Shown here piece after piece: positions 7,704-26,180 of a stretch of 48,589 nucleotides of DNA. Location: contig JAFTYD010000005.1 in assembly GCA_017464845.1 (NCBI GenBank), positions 1 through 48,589 on the forward strand, written 5' to 3'. Position 1 is the stretch's first letter, and every line of letters begins with the position of its first letter. The translations under genes were made by a program, and so were the position numbers. Source of the DNA: Clostridia bacterium. Its GTDB lineage: Bacteria; Bacillota; Clostridia; Christensenellales; UBA1242. The notes beneath the pieces were generated by a model. It was given only the letters and a program-made list of their open reading frames with translations, did not search any database and was not told the DNA's origin.

Positions 7704-8810
7704 ATGCAATATCAATCTTTGTATAGAAAATATAGACCTAAAAATTTTGATGAGGTTATTGGTCAAGAACATATAACAAAAACTTTACAAAATCAAATTA
7801 TGAGTAACAAAATTGGTCATGCTTATCTTTTTACTGGCACAAGAGGTGTTGGTAAAACTAGTATTGCAAAAATATTTGCAAAAGCTGTAAATTGTGAAAA
7901 TAATAAAAATGGTTCACCTTGTTTTGAGTGCGAAACATGTAATAGGCTTGCAAATGAAACAGATATCAACATAATTGAATTAGATGCTGCTTCAAACAAC
8001 AAAGTTGATGATATTAGAGAAATAAGAGAAAAAGTTAAATTTACTCCAGTTGGAGCAAAATATAAAGTTTATATCATTGACGAAGTTCATATGCTTACCG
8101 ATTCTGCTTTCAATGCGCTTTTGAAAACTTTGGAAGAACCACCTTCTTATGTTATTTTCATTCTTGCAACAACTGAAATTCACAAACTACCTCAAACTAT
8201 TCTTTCTAGATGTATTAGGTTTGATTTTAGACTTGTTTCAACTTTGGAACTTACAAATCACTTGAAACATATTTTTGATATAGAAGGAATAAAATATGAA
8301 GATGAAGCTTTGAAACTTATTGCTTCTGCCGGTGAAGGTAGTGTGAGAGATACTCTTTCAATTGCTGATTCTGTAGTAGCATATTCAGGTGGGAATGTAA
8401 CAAAAGATGGCGTACTTAAAATATTAGGCACAACTGATTATGATTTAATACTTAGTTTTTATGACTATTTAATAAATAAAGATGCTGGTGGAATTTTAGG
8501 TCTTATTGATAAAATGGAAGAAAGTGGAAAAAATCTTCCTGTGTTTGCAAAAGATGTTTCAAAACATGCAAGAAATTTGCTTGTTTGCAAAACTTGTAAA
8601 GACCCAGATAAGATTTTAAATCTTCCAAAAGAAATTCTTGAAAAGTTTAAAGAACAATCAACAAAAATTGAAGAAAAGAAACTTATTAGTTTTATGCAAA
8701 TCTTTTCAGGAATTGAAGCAGAACTTAGATATACACTTTCAACAAGATTATTGCTTGAAACAGTTTCACTTTCTGCAATCTATGGAGATGATCAAGTAAA
8801 AAAAAACTAA
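7704..8810 (+). CDS. dnaX: DNA polymerase III clamp-loader subunit DnaX, short (gamma-like) form
   Basis: 368-aa AAA+ ATPase of the replicative clamp loader, which opens and loads the beta clamp. Domains I-III are complete: start MQYQSLYRKYRPKNFDEVIGQ, Walker A GTRGVGKTS (residues 45-53), a zinc module with Cys64, Cys73, Cys76 and Cys79, Walker B VYIIDEVHML, sensor/arginine-finger region LSRCIRFDF, then the domain III collar. The start at 7704 has AGGAG five bases upstream; the ATG-less extension further upstream is excluded by the promoter. Reading in frame 0 stops at 8808-8810, directly after a run of nine A (8798-8806). Typical tau-type DnaX proteins run to 480-560 aa. The missing C-terminal part is encoded in the -1 frame immediately downstream (next entry). 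The dnaX-ybaB-recR order is the usual one. Confidence 0.95.
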   Translation: MQYQSLYRKYRPKNFDEVIGQEHITKTLQNQIMSNKIGHAYLFTGTRGVGKTSIAKIFAKAVNCENNKNGSPCFECETCNRLANETDINIIELDAASNNKVDDIREIREKVKFTPVGAKYKVYIIDEVHMLTDSAFNALLKTLEEPPSYVIFILATTEIHKLPQTILSRCIRFDFRLVSTLELTNHLKHIFDIEGIKYEDEALKLIASAGEGSVRDTLSIADSVVAYSGGNVTKDGVLKILGTTDYDLILSFYDYLINKDAGGILGLIDKMEESGKNLPVFAKDVSKHARNLLVCKTCKDPDKILNLPKEILEKFKEQSTKIEEKKLISFMQIFSGIEAELRYTLSTRLLLETVSLSAIYGDDQVKKN

Positions 8811-9151
8811 CAATTGAAAATCATAAAACAACTTCAACAAAACTTGATGTAAAAAATGTTTGGGGAAAAGTTGTTTTGTATTTGAAAGAAAGAAAAAAAG
8901 TTGCTCTTCATGTTGCATGTGGTGATATTACAGATGTTGAAATAAAAAATGGAACTTTGATTATAAGAAACAGAGATGATTTCTTGATTGGAGTTATCAG
9001 TGAAGGGAAAAAAGAAATTGAACAAGCCTTGAATTGGCAAGGTCTTAATATGCAGGTTTCTGTTGAAAAAATACAAACTGTTTTACCTGAACATGAACAA
9101 GATATATCAAAACTTAAACTTGCTGTTGGAAATAAATTAAAAATAAAATAA
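7704..9151 (+). CDS. dnaX: DnaX long (tau-like) form by -1 shift at an A9 run
   Basis: A one-base backward shift at the A9 run (8798-8806; slip heptamer A AAA AAC at 8801-8807) joins frame 0 to a frame that stays open to the stop at 9149-9151. The product would be about 482 aa. The added 115 residues begin LTIENHKTTSTKLDVKNVW, then GKVVLYLKERKKVALHVACG and a region containing IKNGTLIIRNRDDF and ALNWQGLNMQVSVEKI. This is the pattern of a DnaX C-terminal domain (W..V...L.....V..HV.....V....N..LII). An SD-like GGAG (8784-8787) lies 10 bases before the A run, as in E. coli dnaX, where an internal SD stimulates -1 shifting. A 10-bp inverted repeat (8825-8834 with 8868-8877) follows downstream, somewhat far for a stimulator. 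Transcript slippage adding one A would give the same protein. If the true run is A10, this is simply the normal uninterrupted gene. Confidence 0.7.
8784..8807 (+). promoter_or_regulatory. Candidate programmed frameshift / slippage site in dnaX
   Basis: GGAG (8784-8787), a 10-base gap, then A9 and C (8798-8807). The zero frame reads GTA AAA AAA AAC TAA. The same combination of internal SD and A-rich slip site is known from dnaX genes: E. coli (A AAA AAG, ribosomal) and Thermus (A9, transcriptional). Confidence 0.65.
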
Positions 9152-12455: not shown

Positions 12456-12926
12456 ATGTTACAATTTATTTATCCTGCTGTATTTTTGAAAACATCAGAT
12501 TCATATAAGGTATTAATACCTGACTTAGATTTGACCACAGATGGCGATGATATTTCTCACGCTTATCTTTTTGCGAAAGATTTACTTAGGGTGTATTTTT
12601 CTTATGTAACAAAATATGACCTTGATTATAATTTACCTTCAAAATTTGAAGATATTCAATCTCGTTGTGGAACAAATCAACATGCTCTTTTGATTGATAT
12701 TATAATTCCAGAAGAAGGCGAATCTGAAAATCTTGCAGAAAATGAAAGAGCTCAAAATAATACCCAAGAATCAAGTGAAAAAACTCAAAATGAAGAAGCT
12801 TTTGAAGAATATGAAATGTTTGATGATGACATCATTTTGGAAGAAGATGATTACGATGATGATGACGATGATGAAATCGAACAATACGAATATTCAGATG
12901 ACGATGATGAAGATGAAGAAGACTAA
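12456..12926 (+). CDS. HicB-like domain protein with poly-acidic tail
   Basis: 156 aa in two parts. Residues 1-90 resemble the HicB-type fold: YPAVFLKTSDSYKVLIPDLD, a Gly-Asp turn, then SHAYLFAKDLLRVYF, matching the usual YPAvf...y.v.fPDlpg...Gd...eA...A...L pattern. The last 65 residues are extremely acidic, with runs such as DDDDDDE and DDDDEDEED and no DNA-binding helix. True HicB antitoxins have a ribbon-helix-helix or HTH after this domain and lie next to hicA; neither is seen. So it is an orphan HicB-fold protein of unknown role, not a demonstrable antitoxin. AAAGGAG lies upstream of the ATG. The terminator stem begins inside the last codons, so stop codon and hairpin loop coincide. Confidence 0.8.
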   Translation: MLQFIYPAVFLKTSDSYKVLIPDLDLTTDGDDISHAYLFAKDLLRVYFSYVTKYDLDYNLPSKFEDIQSRCGTNQHALLIDIIIPEEGESENLAENERAQNNTQESSEKTQNEEAFEEYEMFDDDIILEEDDYDDDDDDEIEQYEYSDDDDEDEED

Positions 12927-17915: not shown

Positions 17916-20900
17916 TTATTTAACAGATACTTTCTTTCTTAATCTATAGATAAGAATAATTACTAATAAGAGAATAGCAACTGCTACTATAATGAATATA
18001 ATAGCGAAAGTATTAAGAGGTTCTTTTCTAACAACTTTGTAACTATATAACAAGTTTCCACTAGTTGTGTAAATTTGAATATAGAATTCACCAACATCTT
18101 CAATTTGATAAGATTGAGTTGAAGAAGCACTTGAAGCATTTATAATATAGTTATAATACAAGTAGTATCCATCTTCTTTTTCTGGATAAGAGATAACTCT
18201 TATGTAAGATTCACCAACTTCTGCGAAGATATTTGCAGGGTTGAATGAAATATCAATTTTACCAGTTGTTGATTTACCTTCTTCAAGAGAAACTTTGACA
18301 GGTGTTGAACCAACATTAATCCAAAGTTTGAAGGTATAAGTTGTCATAATTGAACTTGAACTATATAAGTTTTCATTTGTATTAACAGTAACAATATATC
18401 TTCCAGAACCTGTTTTTTCATCTAAATAAGTAAGAACTAATTCAGAGAAATAAGTTTTTCCATTTGATTGAATTGTACTATAAGACAATGTACTTAAAAG
18501 TTGTTTTGTTATATCAACATATTCGTTGTTTACCATCTTGTAAACATTTTGGATATAGTAATTTGAATATTTTGTAAATTCATAAGAATATCTTGATTCT
18601 TCACTATTCATAATTGTGAAGAAATAAACTTCTTTTCTTATTACATTTCCTGTTGCAAGACTTGTTGCAGTAAAACTAACAGAGTAATGTCCCATATCTT
18701 CAAAAGTCCAAGAAGATCTTGAGTTAGTTGTATAACCAGAATATTTCTTTCCGTTTCTTGTTACTTGAATTGTTGGAGCACCAGTAGTTGTATAGTAAGC
18801 AGCAAGAGTAGAGGTTGGAATATTAATTGTTACAATTCCATTATAAATTGCATGGTTTACAGGTTCAGTAGTTTGCAATTCATTTGTTAATGGGTTTGTA
18901 TAAGTCATTGTGAATGGAACATCTTTCAAGAAGATTAATTTTAGAGTTTGAGTTTCTCCAGTTGAACCAGCATTGAAAGTTTGATAATTTCCAACAATGT
19001 CTTTTAATTGAACATTGTAAGTTCCTGATCTTGTTAAGAGAACATAATAATAACTATTATCTTCATAAACTATTGGGTCAAGTTCGTTACCATCTTTTGA
19101 TAATATGATATTAATCTTATTTTGAGAAATACCATAATATTTACTCCAAGAAAGTTTTAATTTATCGAAGTTTTCTTGATCTTCGTTTGCAACGATTGTT
19201 GCTTGATATGAGTTAATTAAGTTTTCGTTAATACCTTCAGTTGATAAGTAGAATAAACGAGAAATATTGTTTGAAGGAGCAATATATGTTATTGCAATAT
19301 ATGCAGAGAATTTAGATAAGTTATCTTTTTCAGCAAGTGCTTCAGAATTTGAAATATACCAAATATCTGTATAAACACCAGTTGAATCTGATATTTGTCT
19401 ATAAACAGGTTCTCCCTCATTCATAATTTTTACATTTTGTTCTTCATTCAAAACAATTGAAACTAAAGATCTATCAGAGTAATCTAAGTTAACAATGTAA
19501 TGTCTTGAATAACTTGTTGTACCATAAACATAAGTTTGTCCAGAAAGTTTAACTTCTTCAACTGAACCATCTGCATTTTCTTTTGTTATGTAATAGAAAT
19601 TAGAAAGTGAAGATGAAAGAATGAAGTTTTCGTAAACATAATCATATTCAAACAAATAAGTTGATGTTGGACTTTGATTTAATTTTGTGTTGTCAAAGTC
19701 ATAAGCAATTTTGAGAACGAAGTTTTGAAGAGTTGTTGTTGTACAAGAAATTGTTTTTCCATTAACAAGAGGTTCAAAAGTTTCTCCGTTATCTCTACTG
19801 ATGTAATATGAATATGGATAATCTAATACATCTGTATCACCAAAGCAATAGAATGTTACTTCTGAATAATATGATACTCCATTAAGTAAATCGTCAGTAA
19901 TTATATTTCCGTTTGTATCTGTGAAATAGTAATAGTAAAGATTTTTTGTTTTATCTTCTTGACTATTGATAGATACTGGGAGATTGTTATAAAGTCTGAA
20001 GTAGATATTATTTACAACAACATTTAAGTCAGACAATTCTCTAAGTTCGATTCTGTATGATTCATTCCAATATTTAATATTTTTGGTTAATGTTTCATCA
20101 ACATGAGAAATTGTAAGACGTAAGATTGTATCATAATTTTCTATTCTATTCTTAGTAATATTAGAGCCTGTTGAATTGGCATCATTGATATCTGCTTGAG
20201 TATCATATACCATTTCATTATTAGCATTATAGATAGTTACATTGTATTTTGAAGTGTTGTATGTATAGATGAATGAATCTTTTGTGATATAAACTAATTC
20301 ACTTTCGTCATTGTAATAAGAATACAATGTGTTTGTACTATCAATTTCTAAGTAATTTGTATATTCATTATACAAGTGAACTTTTGTTGTAACATTTCCG
20401 AAGTTATCTACAATAGTGTATTTTACTCTTTGGTTATTTTCAAGGTTAATAGTATTAATTAACCATCTTGTATAACCAGATAAGTTACTTATTCCAACTA
20501 AATCAAATTCAGTTGCTTTCCAAGCTGAATATGTTCCGAATAAGTTATCTTTGTAATATATTTCTGTATAACCAATATCGTCATAATAGAATTCAATTTT
20601 TACTGATGTTGCATAAACATAACTGTTTGCAGAAGTGTCAGCAAGTTGAGAATCTGTTGGTTGTAAGATATCAATATATTCGTAATCTTCTATTGAAGAA
20701 ATAGCTGTTGTAAGATTTGTATCCCAAATTGTTAAATAGATATTTGTTATCTTTCCTGTATAACGATCTGTGAAAGAAATTGTATTTTTCTTTTGATTTG
20801 GGAAGTAATCTTTAAGTAATGATGAAATATTTATAATAGTTCCATCGTTTTTACTTAAATCATAGAATTCACCTTGACTTAAATATGGAGATGCCATTAA

Positions 20901-23900
20901 GTATAAAGTAATATAATTTCCAATTGTTGCATCGTAATATTTAATATTGAATTGATTCCATTCATCTCCAAACCAATTGATTTTCTTAAATTCAAAACCA
21001 GATGGAGAATAGATGTTGTAATAAGTAGAATCTAAATCATCTATAGAGTACGCTTGAACTTCTTCACCATTTTTATTGTTTGTGTAAGTGATTAAGTTGT
21101 TGTATTCTTTTTGATCTTTTTCATTTACTGTTTCATCACTGTAAACAAAGATTGAATAAATTGTTAAGTTTCCAGCAAGGTCTCTTTCGATAATTTCATA
21201 ATACATATTATTTATTAAACTATCTGTCAATTCTTCCAAAGAAGTTTTTGACAAGAGGTTTAATGAACCTTGAGCTGTTGCGAAATCAGAGTAGTAAGTT
21301 TCTGAATCGAATAACTCATTGTATTTTGAAGAATTTGGAATTCCTGTAATAGAGTCAAATTCTAATTTTCCTTCAGCATTTAAAAGTTCAAAAGATCTAT
21401 AATAAACTTCTTGAGTTTGTGTTGGAAGACTTGAATTTGTAGCAAGAGTTTGGAAAAGAGTTGCAAAGTATTCAGAAGTTACTGAATATGAATAGTAAGC
21501 AAACATTCCTGTTGATGCACTAACATTGTAACTTTCAGAACCTTCTGTTGTTTTACTTCCATCAACACCATAGAATTCTCTTAAGCTTGCAGATGTAACA
21601 CTTGTGATGCTATTTGCAGTTAAAGAACTAAGTGTGTTTTGTAATAATGTATTAATGTTTTGTGTTGGAGCAAGTTTATCAACGACAATTGTTTTTGTTG
21701 TTGGTTTGTAGTAAGCATTGTTACCTTCAAATATCATTTTGATTGAGATTGTTGCACCTTCGGTGTAAGCATCATTCAAATCAGACAAATGTAAGGTTAA
21801 TGTATTTTGATTATCTTCAGTTTCGATTAAAGAACTATCAATCATATGGTTGTAACCAGTTGATGTAGTAACTAAGATTTGTTCTTTATCAATCTTTGCA
21901 CTGTAATCATAAGTTGGATCTGTCCAAACAACTTTAAGTTCGTCTTGGTTTGTATAAAGGGTTCCGTTGTAGTCAGCAAGTGAACTACCTCTTGAATCGT
22001 AAATATTAAATTCAGGAGCAGGAGCTGTTATTTCAAATTGGAATTCAATATAGCTATTGAAACTATTTTCACCAGCAATACTATAATATCCTTGATAAAT
22101 TCTAACTCTATAAATACCAGCATTTGTGAAGTTTGAAACTTCGTTTCCATGACTATCTGCAAAAGTTAAGAATCCATTTTTCTCTCCAACAGATGAGTAT
22201 CTAATTGGAGTGTTAGTTATTCCTGTTGTAGGAGTATAGATAATTGTTGAGAATAATTTATATTCTTCAATTACACTTTCAACAGGTGTTTCGTTTACAA
22301 CTTCGTTATATTTAACGTTCATAGTATCATCACGATTAACATTGAATTGATAATTGTTTTCACTTTCAACATAATCAACATTTTGAGTGTATTTGTAAGC
22401 AGGAACATAAACATTAACAGGAAGCTTATTTGTGTAAACGCTAATTGAAGATGAACTAATAAGTCCGTCAGATGAATATAAGTTTGAACCATTAACATTT
22501 CCAAATGGAGCATCTGGGAAAGTTAACATTAAGTTTGCATTTGTTCCGTCATCATAGATACCAAGGAAGATATCGCCACCAACGATACTTTCAACAGTAC
22601 CAGATTCTGTAACATCAGCAGAACTTATAACTGAGAATCTATCGATATATAAAGTAATAGATCTTCTTGCATAATCATCTTCTTCGATAAAGTAATCATC
22701 ACCTAAAAGATATGTTCTTTCAAATACATAAACTCCAGCTTTTGTTATACTATCTTGAACATTTATTGTTCTTGTAATCTTATCAGTTGAAGTTGATTTT
22801 GAATCATAAGTATAAACTTCATATTCTTCAGTTGGATTATCTTTATCATAAGTGTAGTAGTAATAAGTATATTCTTTGTTAACACCATTAACTTTAACAG
22901 TCTTTGTTATAGTTTTGATGTAATATTCATAGTAATACATTTTAACTGTATCTACTTGAGTTATTTTTCCATCATTTTCAATTCTTGGGATAAATGAAAG
23001 TGAGAATGCTTTTTCCATCATAGTTGGTTTCAAGAATGCATTTCTAGATTCATAAGTTTCTCCATCAGAACCTTCAAAGGTTGTGATTGTACTGTCGTTT
23101 GCTGCAAGAGTAATATTTTCATTTGAGTTATTTGAATAATATGTAATCTTCATTTCTGCAGCATCTTTTGTAACAATCAAAGTTAAATAATTACTGTAAT
23201 AATTTGTATATTGTATTTTATCTGTAAGTGAATAGTTGTGATCAAAAAGAGTATTTGCTCTATTTCTTATTAAGATTTCATAGTTATCACTCTTACCTTC
23301 AACATCTGCATTGATATCAATCATATAACCAGTTTGAAGAGTAAAGTTTGGATTAGTTGGTGTTGCTACCCAATATGTTTCTTCGTTTGGTATAGTGAAG
23401 TAATAACCATTGTAGTTAGTTAAACTCATACCTGCATCTGGGTTTGCACCAGGGAATACTAATTCTTGTATGTAATCATTTTTAAAGAATTTATTATAGA
23501 ATGTTTTACAAATATTAACATTGTATTGACCATTATTATCTTTGAATAAATCAACGGTTTTAATCTTGTCAAATATTTCTTCATCATTCATATTTGGATT
23601 TGATCTAATATCATTGAAGATATCAAATGAACCATTTGCAAGATTAGTAATGATAATTGATTTATATTTTCCCCAGAACAATTTTTGTGAAGTTGAAACA
23701 GTTTCAGTTGAACCTGGGAAATCATATTCCATTTTTTCTTCGTTATAAAGAGCGAAGAGAGGAGTTGAATTATCAATCATGAAAATATCAACAGTACTAT
23801 TTCCAGCTTCATCAAATACTTGTACGAAATATAAACCAGGGTCTGCTAATTTATAATCTGCTGGGAGTGTAGTTGTATATCCGATTGAGTTTTTGCATGG

Positions 23901-26180
23901 GTTCCATTTTGTTTTAGATAAATTCATATTAACTGTATAATTTACAGGAATAGAAGTTTCTAAACTGTTTTCAAGTGAAGCATAAAGAATTGAAGATAAG
24001 TTATCTTTTCCATAATAAACTATACTTGACATTTCAAATTTTTTGTAATAAGCATAAGTTTTTGCGCCACTCTTTTTCTCGTTCCATGATAATGTCATAT
24101 TTTGATTTGTAAAAGTATCAAAAGAATGACCGATTGTATAAGAACCATTTGTTTCTCTTTTTACATTTCTAGCAGTTAAGTTTGTGATTGGGTTGTTGTC
24201 AATATAGAAGTCAGTTGTTTCAGGTGTTCCATTCAAACCATTTTTACCACTAAAAATTTCAAGTACATAATGAGCATTGTTTCTTAATGTAATTATGCCA
24301 TCGTTATCTAGGTCAATATCAGAGAAGTTTGCATGATCTAAAACAACGTTGCTTGTATAATCTGTTACAATTGAATTGTTATTTGAATAATTATAACCAG
24401 AAATTTTGATATACACTTTTGTGTTATATAAATCATCAAAATGATCATTTATGATAGTAACTGAACTATTTGTATATTTTCCAGCTTTCAAAGTTGAATT
24501 ATCTTTATCATTGATAATTGAAATTGTTGGGTTAACTTTATTTACTTCAAGGAAGAATATTTGATATTGTGTTGAAGAATCGTAACCAGCAATTGTTTGA
24601 TATTGATCATATGTATAACCTAATATAAAAATGTAATAACCTTGAGTGCTACCAAAAGTTTTTCCGGTATATTGTTTTTGATAAAGTTTAGTACCATTCA
24701 AAGAATAACTTGAAGTATCAAAAGAACCATCATTTTTTGTACAGTAAACTTGAGAGTTACTTGACAAGGTTGTATTAGATAAGAATTTTAAAGGAGATTG
24801 GTCTGTTTGAACAGGTTTAATATTATTGTTTTGAATGTATCTTAAAACATAGTCAATAGTATATCTGTTACCGTAGCTATTCTTTGTTAAGAATTCTTTA
24901 TATAAAGCTGTGATATCAGCAGAGTCTGTGAAAGTAGAATTTTCTTCGTGAACATTTTTAAATTCTTTAAAGTTATAAGCATTAGTTTGAGGATCTCTAC
25001 CTTCGCCATAGTTTGTGAAAACTGATTGCATTCCATAAACATATAATCTTCTGTTGTTTCCATAAAGTTTATCAAGTTTATAATATTCGTAATCTTCAGT
25101 TGTTGTATTTAAATAATTTGTAACGAAAATGAATTTAAATGAAATTTCATATTCGCCAAGATTATTGAAAGTTAAGGTTGTCGAATATCTCTTTGTATCA
25201 TTAAGACCTTCAGTGGCAGTGGTTCTAGCCATAAGAACGGAAGAATCACCTTCAAGTATATGAGTTTCATTTTTCTTATCAAAAGTTACTCTTACAAAAG
25301 ATTCAACTTCAGAAGGGTCTTTCTTATTGATAGAGATTTCATATCTAGTAGGGTCATAAGTGAGAGATGGTAAAGAAGCAACAGCAGTTCCATCGTTCAC
25401 GTTATAAAGAGAATAATTGTAATAGTAGTAATAGTCGTGAGATGAAGTTAAGGCTAAAGTTTCAACGCTAGAAGCAGTCATAATAGGTCTAGAATTTTCA
25501 TAATAAGAACTTTCACTTAAAACAAAGAATTTGAAGTCAATAGAAAGTTCATCAGATTCCCATAAAGAAGCTTCAAGTCCTAAAGCACCATCAGTAGTTG
25601 AAATAACTTGACCTCTAATAGAAAGGGTATAGATACCATCTTCTTGAATTCTAATAGTAGTATTTTCAGTATTGCCAGTAACAGCAAGAGTAAGGTCAAT
25701 AAGTTGAGGCTTATTAGCATTACCAACAAAAGTAGGATTTTCAGGAGTTTCCTCAAAAGTACTTATGTAGTTATCGTCGTTGTTACTATCAATAATATTA
25801 GTAGTAGAATTGTTAGAGTGTAAGATTAAGTTACTGATAAGGAAGAACGAGAAAGTAGTAGAGTCACTAGTATCAGGGAAGTAAACATAATTATACACAG
25901 GAGAAATGATAGTAGGAGCATTTCTCAAGAAAGAGAAGTCTATGTAAGTATTAGAAGAAGAGTACAAGAAAACATTGTCTTCTTTCAAATTCTTACCAGA
26001 TTCATCTTCAGCGACGAAAAAGTCAGGAAGGGTATCGTTGACAAGAGTATCATCAACATAAGCTTCCGAAGAGTTCTCAATAGTTCTCTTTTGAGTAAGA
26101 GAAGCATCGGCTAAGAAAAATAGACCGAATAATGAGAGAGAGAATAATAAAAATTTAAAAAATCTAGAAAATTTTACCAT
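17916..26180 (-). CDS. Giant (2754 aa) membrane-anchored surface protein with Ig-like repeats
   Basis: Largest gene of the window. Residues 1-27 form a signal peptide (basic VKFSRF, then a hydrophobic FLLFSLSLFGLFFLADA). The very long outside part is rich in Asn, Ser, Thr and Tyr. A motif of the form AGxYxVxV recurs at the ends of beta-sandwich units, for example NAGIYRVRIY, RSGTYNVQL, DMGHYSVSF, DVGEFYIQIY and DPGLYFVQVF followed by DEAGN; this is typical of Ig-like/cadherin-like bacterial surface repeats. The C-terminus has one membrane helix (about 2724-2744, FAIIFIIVAVAILLLVIILI) and a basic tail, with no LPXTG, so it is held by the membrane rather than by sortase. The ATG at 26180 follows GAGG by five bases. 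Adhesion or envelope structure is inferred; no catalytic domain was recognised. The 1351-aa gene at 43250 has the same architecture. Confidence 0.88.
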   Translation of the reverse strand: MVKFSRFFKFLLFSLSLFGLFFLADASLTQKRTIENSSEAYVDDTLVNDTLPDFFVAEDESGKNLKEDNVFLYSSSNTYIDFSFLRNAPTIISPVYNYVYFPDTSDSTTFSFFLISNLILHSNNSTTNIIDSNNDDNYISTFEETPENPTFVGNANKPQLIDLTLAVTGNTENTTIRIQEDGIYTLSIRGQVISTTDGALGLEASLWESDELSIDFKFFVLSESSYYENSRPIMTASSVETLALTSSHDYYYYYNYSLYNVNDGTAVASLPSLTYDPTRYEISINKKDPSEVESFVRVTFDKKNETHILEGDSSVLMARTTATEGLNDTKRYSTTLTFNNLGEYEISFKFIFVTNYLNTTTEDYEYYKLDKLYGNNRRLYVYGMQSVFTNYGEGRDPQTNAYNFKEFKNVHEENSTFTDSADITALYKEFLTKNSYGNRYTIDYVLRYIQNNNIKPVQTDQSPLKFLSNTTLSSNSQVYCTKNDGSFDTSSYSLNGTKLYQKQYTGKTFGSTQGYYIFILGYTYDQYQTIAGYDSSTQYQIFFLEVNKVNPTISIINDKDNSTLKAGKYTNSSVTIINDHFDDLYNTKVYIKISGYNYSNNNSIVTDYTSNVVLDHANFSDIDLDNDGIITLRNNAHYVLEIFSGKNGLNGTPETTDFYIDNNPITNLTARNVKRETNGSYTIGHSFDTFTNQNMTLSWNEKKSGAKTYAYYKKFEMSSIVYYGKDNLSSILYASLENSLETSIPVNYTVNMNLSKTKWNPCKNSIGYTTTLPADYKLADPGLYFVQVFDEAGNSTVDIFMIDNSTPLFALYNEEKMEYDFPGSTETVSTSQKLFWGKYKSIIITNLANGSFDIFNDIRSNPNMNDEEIFDKIKTVDLFKDNNGQYNVNICKTFYNKFFKNDYIQELVFPGANPDAGMSLTNYNGYYFTIPNEETYWVATPTNPNFTLQTGYMIDINADVEGKSDNYEILIRNRANTLFDHNYSLTDKIQYTNYYSNYLTLIVTKDAAEMKITYYSNNSNENITLAANDSTITTFEGSDGETYESRNAFLKPTMMEKAFSLSFIPRIENDGKITQVDTVKMYYYEYYIKTITKTVKVNGVNKEYTYYYYTYDKDNPTEEYEVYTYDSKSTSTDKITRTINVQDSITKAGVYVFERTYLLGDDYFIEEDDYARRSITLYIDRFSVISSADVTESGTVESIVGGDIFLGIYDDGTNANLMLTFPDAPFGNVNGSNLYSSDGLISSSSISVYTNKLPVNVYVPAYKYTQNVDYVESENNYQFNVNRDDTMNVKYNEVVNETPVESVIEEYKLFSTIIYTPTTGITNTPIRYSSVGEKNGFLTFADSHGNEVSNFTNAGIYRVRIYQGYYSIAGENSFNSYIEFQFEITAPAPEFNIYDSRGSSLADYNGTLYTNQDELKVVWTDPTYDYSAKIDKEQILVTTSTGYNHMIDSSLIETEDNQNTLTLHLSDLNDAYTEGATISIKMIFEGNNAYYKPTTKTIVVDKLAPTQNINTLLQNTLSSLTANSITSVTSASLREFYGVDGSKTTEGSESYNVSASTGMFAYYSYSVTSEYFATLFQTLATNSSLPTQTQEVYYRSFELLNAEGKLEFDSITGIPNSSKYNELFDSETYYSDFATAQGSLNLLSKTSLEELTDSLINNMYYEIIERDLAGNLTIYSIFVYSDETVNEKDQKEYNNLITYTNNKNGEEVQAYSIDDLDSTYYNIYSPSGFEFKKINWFGDEWNQFNIKYYDATIGNYITLYLMASPYLSQGEFYDLSKNDGTIINISSLLKDYFPNQKKNTISFTDRYTGKITNIYLTIWDTNLTTAISSIEDYEYIDILQPTDSQLADTSANSYVYATSVKIEFYYDDIGYTEIYYKDNLFGTYSAWKATEFDLVGISNLSGYTRWLINTINLENNQRVKYTIVDNFGNVTTKVHLYNEYTNYLEIDSTNTLYSYYNDESELVYITKDSFIYTYNTSKYNVTIYNANNEMVYDTQADINDANSTGSNITKNRIENYDTILRLTISHVDETLTKNIKYWNESYRIELRELSDLNVVVNNIYFRLYNNLPVSINSQEDKTKNLYYYYFTDTNGNIITDDLLNGVSYYSEVTFYCFGDTDVLDYPYSYYISRDNGETFEPLVNGKTISCTTTTLQNFVLKIAYDFDNTKLNQSPTSTYLFEYDYVYENFILSSSLSNFYYITKENADGSVEEVKLSGQTYVYGTTSYSRHYIVNLDYSDRSLVSIVLNEEQNVKIMNEGEPVYRQISDSTGVYTDIWYISNSEALAEKDNLSKFSAYIAITYIAPSNNISRLFYLSTEGINENLINSYQATIVANEDQENFDKLKLSWSKYYGISQNKINIILSKDGNELDPIVYEDNSYYYVLLTRSGTYNVQLKDIVGNYQTFNAGSTGETQTLKLIFLKDVPFTMTYTNPLTNELQTTEPVNHAIYNGIVTINIPTSTLAAYYTTTGAPTIQVTRNGKKYSGYTTNSRSSWTFEDMGHYSVSFTATSLATGNVIRKEVYFFTIMNSEESRYSYEFTKYSNYYIQNVYKMVNNEYVDITKQLLSTLSYSTIQSNGKTYFSELVLTYLDEKTGSGRYIVTVNTNENLYSSSSIMTTYTFKLWINVGSTPVKVSLEEGKSTTGKIDISFNPANIFAEVGESYIRVISYPEKEDGYYLYYNYIINASSASSTQSYQIEDVGEFYIQIYTTSGNLLYSYKVVRKEPLNTFAIIFIIVAVAILLLVIILIYRLRKKVSVK

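Follow-up and report, generated by a model that had tools for sequence, protein, structure and literature searches.

Comparative analysis of a split dnaX gene in the clostridial family UBA1242: tau is probably reached through a slip at a conserved run of adenines

The stretch of DNA analysed here (the window; 48,589 nucleotides from a Clostridia bacterium) carries a dnaX gene that begins with ATG and whose coding sequence is distributed over two frames (Table 1). Frame 0 finishes with the codons GTA AAA AAA AAC TAA, and its product matches TIGR02397 (dnaX_nterm) at 7.9e-137. Because clamp-loader domain III (Pfam DNA_pol3_gamma3, residues 232–361) ends at residue 361 of 368, the predicted frame-0 product is gamma, terminating just after that domain. 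The −1 frame (AAA CTA ACA ATT ...) is open from the A run to a TAA at 9149–9151, and by count a tau made of gamma joined to this frame would be 482 aa long. The initial annotation had described an A9 run, a frame-0 TAA directly behind it and a −1 frame open to 9151 with a TGG (W) codon at 8861–8863 and a VALHVACG motif, and in all of these details and coordinates it agrees exactly with the window sequence.

Table 1. Features of the dnaX locus in the window, and candidate +1 sites at other loci of the family
Feature	Position	Strand	Remarks
dnaX frame 0, gamma-type product	7704..8810	+	368 aa, domains I–III only
GGAG, role doubtful	8784..8787	+	ten bases before A run
A9 slippage run (candidate)	8798..8806	+	window sequence
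A_AAA_AAC heptamer, in the phase needed for a ribosomal −1 shift	8801..8807	+	window sequence
−1 frame, tau C-terminal extension	8804..9151	+	relatives in 108/112 genus genomes; in-frame homologues
TAA stop of frame-0 (gamma) product	8808..8810	+	window sequence
10-bp inverted repeat, not conserved	8825–8834 / 8868–8877	+	perfect reverse complements
RF2-like +1 candidates	L153, L156, L163, L185, L196, L213, L151, L161, L181		GGTG-NNN-CCC in 8/9

The tail encoded in the −1 frame (115 aa) was matched in nearly all genomes of the genus to which the window belongs. In pairs of less than 25% divergence, compared over 50 codons, 22, 9 and 68% of the substitutions fell on −1 frame codon positions 1, 2 and 3 respectively, and purifying selection on the predicted tail is thereby shown at the codon level. 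In addition, relatives with a single-frame gene carry the same C-terminal domain in frame, and comparison has shown the predicted tail to be homologous with the tail of these DnaX proteins. No family in Pfam or NCBIfam was matched by the tail, and a sequence search of solved structures gave a best E-value of 0.61. An AlphaFold2 model of the tail (pLDDT 80.9) had DnaA domain I and DciA as its best structural matches; domain V of E. coli tau was absent among the 50 listed structure-comparison entries, an absence that excludes nothing.

To place the split in the genus, we fetched 108 dnaX loci, one genome per species, and both parts of the gene could be placed in 107 of them. The tau tail lies in the −1 frame behind A9 or A10 in 105 of these 107 loci, and two (L013 and L090) have A10 and one continuous frame. 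These counts leave out L108, which lies at a contig end and lacks the N-terminal part, four genomes with no tail match and weak gamma matches only (G005, G054, G070 and G086), and loci L109–L138 and L319–L398, which as far as checked repeat genus loci. A one-base homopolymer deletion in the assembly, with a true A10 and dnaX really in a single frame, had been offered as the rival of the split reading, and L013 and L090 speak for it; these two were the only genus loci with ten A's and a single frame when the relatives were checked. The split, however, is shared by the genomes of 105 species whose assemblies come from several projects, and we reject the deletion as so improbable that it can be set aside. 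Among the named relatives, the best 80 of 103 were metagenome assemblies from several projects and hosts and included Candidatus Caccovivens faecavium, whose genus is equated with GTDB UBA11517 of the family UBA1242, order Christensenellales, in release 95 (PMC8035907). The recurrence in 105/107 loci and the codon-position bias of the −1 frame together place the split above chance, and on this comparative evidence the dnaX split is a conserved device and not an assembly or sequencing error. The original reading, in which frame 0 gives gamma and the shift gives tau, thus gains support from conservation across the genus and from 12 other genera of the family in which a −1 split occurs at A9/A10.

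The family UBA1242 comprises 309 genomes in 42 genera. Outside the genus, 148 loci were read from 197 genomes (49 of the 197 remaining unread, and genus g12, a single genome with a weak match only, being left out), and 66 of these loci have the −1 split. The 255 family loci thus divide into 171 with a −1 split (105 in the genus and 66 outside), 49 with a single frame, 15 with a +1 split, 12 with the tail as a separate ORF, one (L262) with A9 and the tail in the +1 frame, and seven unclassified (L191, L206, L236, L242, L244, L245 and L246). L013, L090 and L262 have one A more or fewer and tau in another frame, in keeping with the slippage proposed below. In other families of the order, 120 among the matches listed (hand count) show an uninterrupted frame that is 491 aa or longer, and 23 of the 396 genomes searched gave no match. 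A DnaX tree of 110 rows, which represents one gene only, requires no fewer than 15 transitions between the four states (eight for −1 versus the rest and six for +1 versus the rest); that the −1 split arose only once in the main clade together with g24/g33 was not rejected (p-AU 0.153). Where dnaX is divided in this way, across a large assemblage of uncultured gut bacteria, full-length tau can probably be made only through a slip at an A9/A10 run.

At the junction, the run has nine A's in 135 of the 171 −1 split loci, ten in 33 and six or seven in the other three (L165, L149 and L275); within the genus, the figures are 98 with A9 and seven with A10 (n=105). The frame-0 stop stands one base past the run in 150/171 loci, 165 have the AAN phase at the end of the run, and 157 have a C immediately behind it. 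Within the genus, the tau-frame codon that follows the run is CTR in 93 loci and TTR in seven, as against 204 CTR and 613 TTR along the tail; since C and T are synonymous here in both frames, this preference points to the AAC codon. In 98 of 105 genus loci, the run begins at the third position of a four-fold codon (GTA, GCA, ACA or TCA), compared with 31% A at the four-fold sites of the same genes. The 13-mer A9-CTRA was present in 99 of 112 genus genomes, with approximately 18 matches outside dnaX.

Comparison with known dnaX systems places the window gene, as judged by its frame arrangement, in the reversed two-ORF kind that has already been published. Antonov 2013 (PMC3711429) describes 17 such genes from 12 genera, in which tau requires a −1 shift at poly-A, the runs being A10 in nine and A9, A8 and A7 in one each, and PMC5009743 repeats this report. 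The window gene shares its sequence hallmarks, namely gamma in frame 0, a tail in the −1 frame behind a run of 7–10 A's, and a close gamma stop. What differs here is that the arrangement occurs in a clostridial family, in which 171 such loci were read, mostly with A9 and 150 of them with a single base between run and stop, and that it stands alongside other layouts encoding tau. The dnaX gene of Thermus thermophilus also has A9 at the gamma/tau junction, at which transcription slippage gives two products (PMC1088944 and PMC5009743), but in that gene tau is the frame-0 product and gamma arises by slippage, an order that some genera of the family appear to follow while others are reversed. Tau in frame 0 with near stops in the other two frames is not what the window holds, as its frame 0 stops at 8808 and its −1 frame is open to 9151. 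In E. coli, a −1 ribosomal frameshift on A_AAA_AAG, with a Shine–Dalgarno (SD) sequence and a stem-loop, acts on a frame 0 that is tau (PMC5009743). The window gene resembles it in that a run of A's lets a single gene yield two products, here predicted, but it has A_AAA_AAC instead of A_AAA_AAG, gamma in frame 0 and no conserved downstream stem-loop.

In the mechanism that we propose, default reading would give gamma, with its stop right after the A run, and RNA polymerase slipping on the A9 would produce mRNAs with one extra A, or a frame-equivalent number, in which gamma is joined to the −1 frame to make tau. Messages in the third frame would stop within a few codons and yield a gamma-length product, and a −1 ribosomal shift on A_AAA_AAC may contribute as well. 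From the sequence data we infer the production of both gamma and tau, as also the mainly transcriptional nature of the slippage and its efficiency. We consider it fairly probable that tau is the slipped product with RNA polymerase slippage as its main route; the polymerase is favoured because the run exceeds what a heptamer needs, because A9+ runs are avoided elsewhere and the heptamer is not, and because no conserved stem-loop was found.

As regards run length, 168 of the 171 −1 split loci have A9 or A10, and a −1 heptamer requires six A's. To assess avoidance, we applied a test of the kind used in PMC1088944 to 354 genes from approximately 433 kb of the window's own genome, in which A9, A10 and A11+ runs numbered 6, 1 and 0 against 37.7, 13.8 and 10.2 expected, this dnaX being one of the six with A9. 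In-frame A_AAA_AAC occurred in the same genes 54 times against 60.1 expected, like the other phases. T9+ runs were avoided too. The density of A/T9+ runs was 0.025 per kb in coding and 0.39 per kb in noncoding DNA, and the noncoding runs also lay below expectation (17 versus 35.4), so that slippage during replication is another possible reason for the scarcity of A9. A stop in the third frame follows within 10 codons in 104/105 genus loci and 66/66 other −1 split loci, compared with 67 and 46% respectively at control positions. Related sequences are not independent, and p-values are used here as guides only.

The same two products could owe their origin chiefly to ribosomes that shift to −1 on A_AAA_AAC or the tandem A_AAA_AAA_AAC, an explanation that we hold to be possible, if rather unlikely. 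It would agree with the direction of the split, which is −1 in 171 of the 172 loci split at an A run, a single direction being suggestive of ribosomal frameshifting by the rule given in PMC3711429, and likewise with the AAN end phase and the conserved C after the run. Long runs and an unavoided heptamer speak against it. The GGAG to which the initial annotation drew attention does lie ten bases before the run, and in the genus SD-like pairing just before the run exceeds that in other parts of the gene; however, the anti-SD pairing is no better than after synonymous shuffling of these codons (−4.36 versus −4.36, p 0.73), a comparison that keeps the amino acids fixed, which could themselves be selected for pairing. 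Similarly, the inverted repeat reported there has perfect arms in the window (AAAACAACTT and AAGTTGTTTT; hairpin z −1.82) but is not conserved across the genus, where RNAalifold of the 105 loci gave 0.0 kcal/mol and thus no conserved downstream stem-loop. Downstream folding was slightly stronger than in controls, with a 70-nt minimum free energy of −12.35 versus −11.14 and a genus z of −0.70 at offset 10 versus −0.22 to −0.46 at other offsets. The three short-run loci also fit frameshifting by the ribosome. L165 (g9), which may be a ribosomal site, has A_AAA_AAC but no long run; AAAGGA precedes it, and the stop may be followed by a hairpin, its z being −2.10 in one and 0.25 in the other of the two windows tried.

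Polymerase slippage also has to be weighed against internal or coupled initiation, by which the tail would be synthesized as a polypeptide of its own and which we regard as very improbable for the window gene. An ATG or GTG lies between the run and VWGK in 30/105 genus loci, and an ATG, GTG or TTG in 53, but nowhere in that interval is a start codon conserved, and the A run would then need no conservation. Elsewhere in the family such an arrangement looks real, with the tail in an ORF of its own that lies at the gamma stop or shortly behind it in L237–L241 (g23) and L247 (g41) and in part of g27 (L146, L169, L178, L179, L183 and L189), and this layout looks like gene fission.

Single-frame genes and +1 splits make up the other layouts. 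In 59 single-frame genes, 12 of the 13 A9+ runs fall in codons 345–400, where 7.0 were expected against 3.8 elsewhere. Six of these genes (L176, L210 (g31), L160, L167, L150 and L168) have A9 at codons 359–361, in all three phases and with stops within four codons in both other frames; to judge from their sequence, these loci look like a Thermus-type version of the device, in which the default product is the other one, and we count them in favour of the polymerase.

In nine loci of g4, g6, g7, g8, g11 and g27, a CCC codon stands at the frame-0 stop (eight loci) or one codon before it (one locus). GGTG lies exactly 3 nt upstream of this CCC in 8/9 loci, compared with 7/3363 background positions, and CCC accounts for only 2 of the 93 proline codons elsewhere in the nine genes. 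Seven of the nine loci gave a match of the tail profile in the +1 frame, with E >0.01 for three of these, and L161 and L181 gave none; L161, whose contig ends early, is assigned to +1 by motif alone. In six loci of g20 (L155, L187, L190, L199, L201 and L204), TTTCCCAGN is followed by the stop in 6/6; the sequence reads TTT CCC AGN stop, so that the stop is not adjacent to CCC, and the tail matches the +1 frame in all six, some weakly. By analogy, the GGTG-NNN-CCC-stop site resembles that of prfB (RF2), a known case of +1 frameshifting. Both have an SD-like element (GGTG in dnaX) 3 nt before a rare codon and then a stop; they differ in that the codon here is CCC, the gene dnaX and the product tau, and the site is absent from the window. 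tRNA-Pro(UGG) is described as pairing weakly with CCC and able to shift to +1 (PMC4519876). Among the open-licence papers listed for dnaX recoding, prfB/CCC and Christensenellales, we found no report of a +1 dnaX site, and if true this cassette would represent a novel form of programmed frameshift.

We think it likely that UBA1242 (GTDB R95) obtains tau through interchangeable devices at the same junction, namely frame-agnostic A9/A10 slippage that is gamma- or tau-first, the RF2-like +1 site GGTG-NNN-CCC-stop, and fission. In the genomes of 105 species of a single genus, a replication protein seems to rely on a slip in decoding, and standard gene calling would detect no more than a short dnaX there. 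The family amounts to a natural experiment, in which the choice between gamma and tau is kept while the frame, the direction and perhaps the slipping machine (RNA polymerase or ribosome) vary, and it opens the way to studying the reasons for retaining both products and the turnover of recoding sites.

Apart from dnaX, the window contains a 2754-aa ORF on the minus strand (17916–26180) and a 156-aa ORF (12456–12926) with a very acidic, D/E-rich end.
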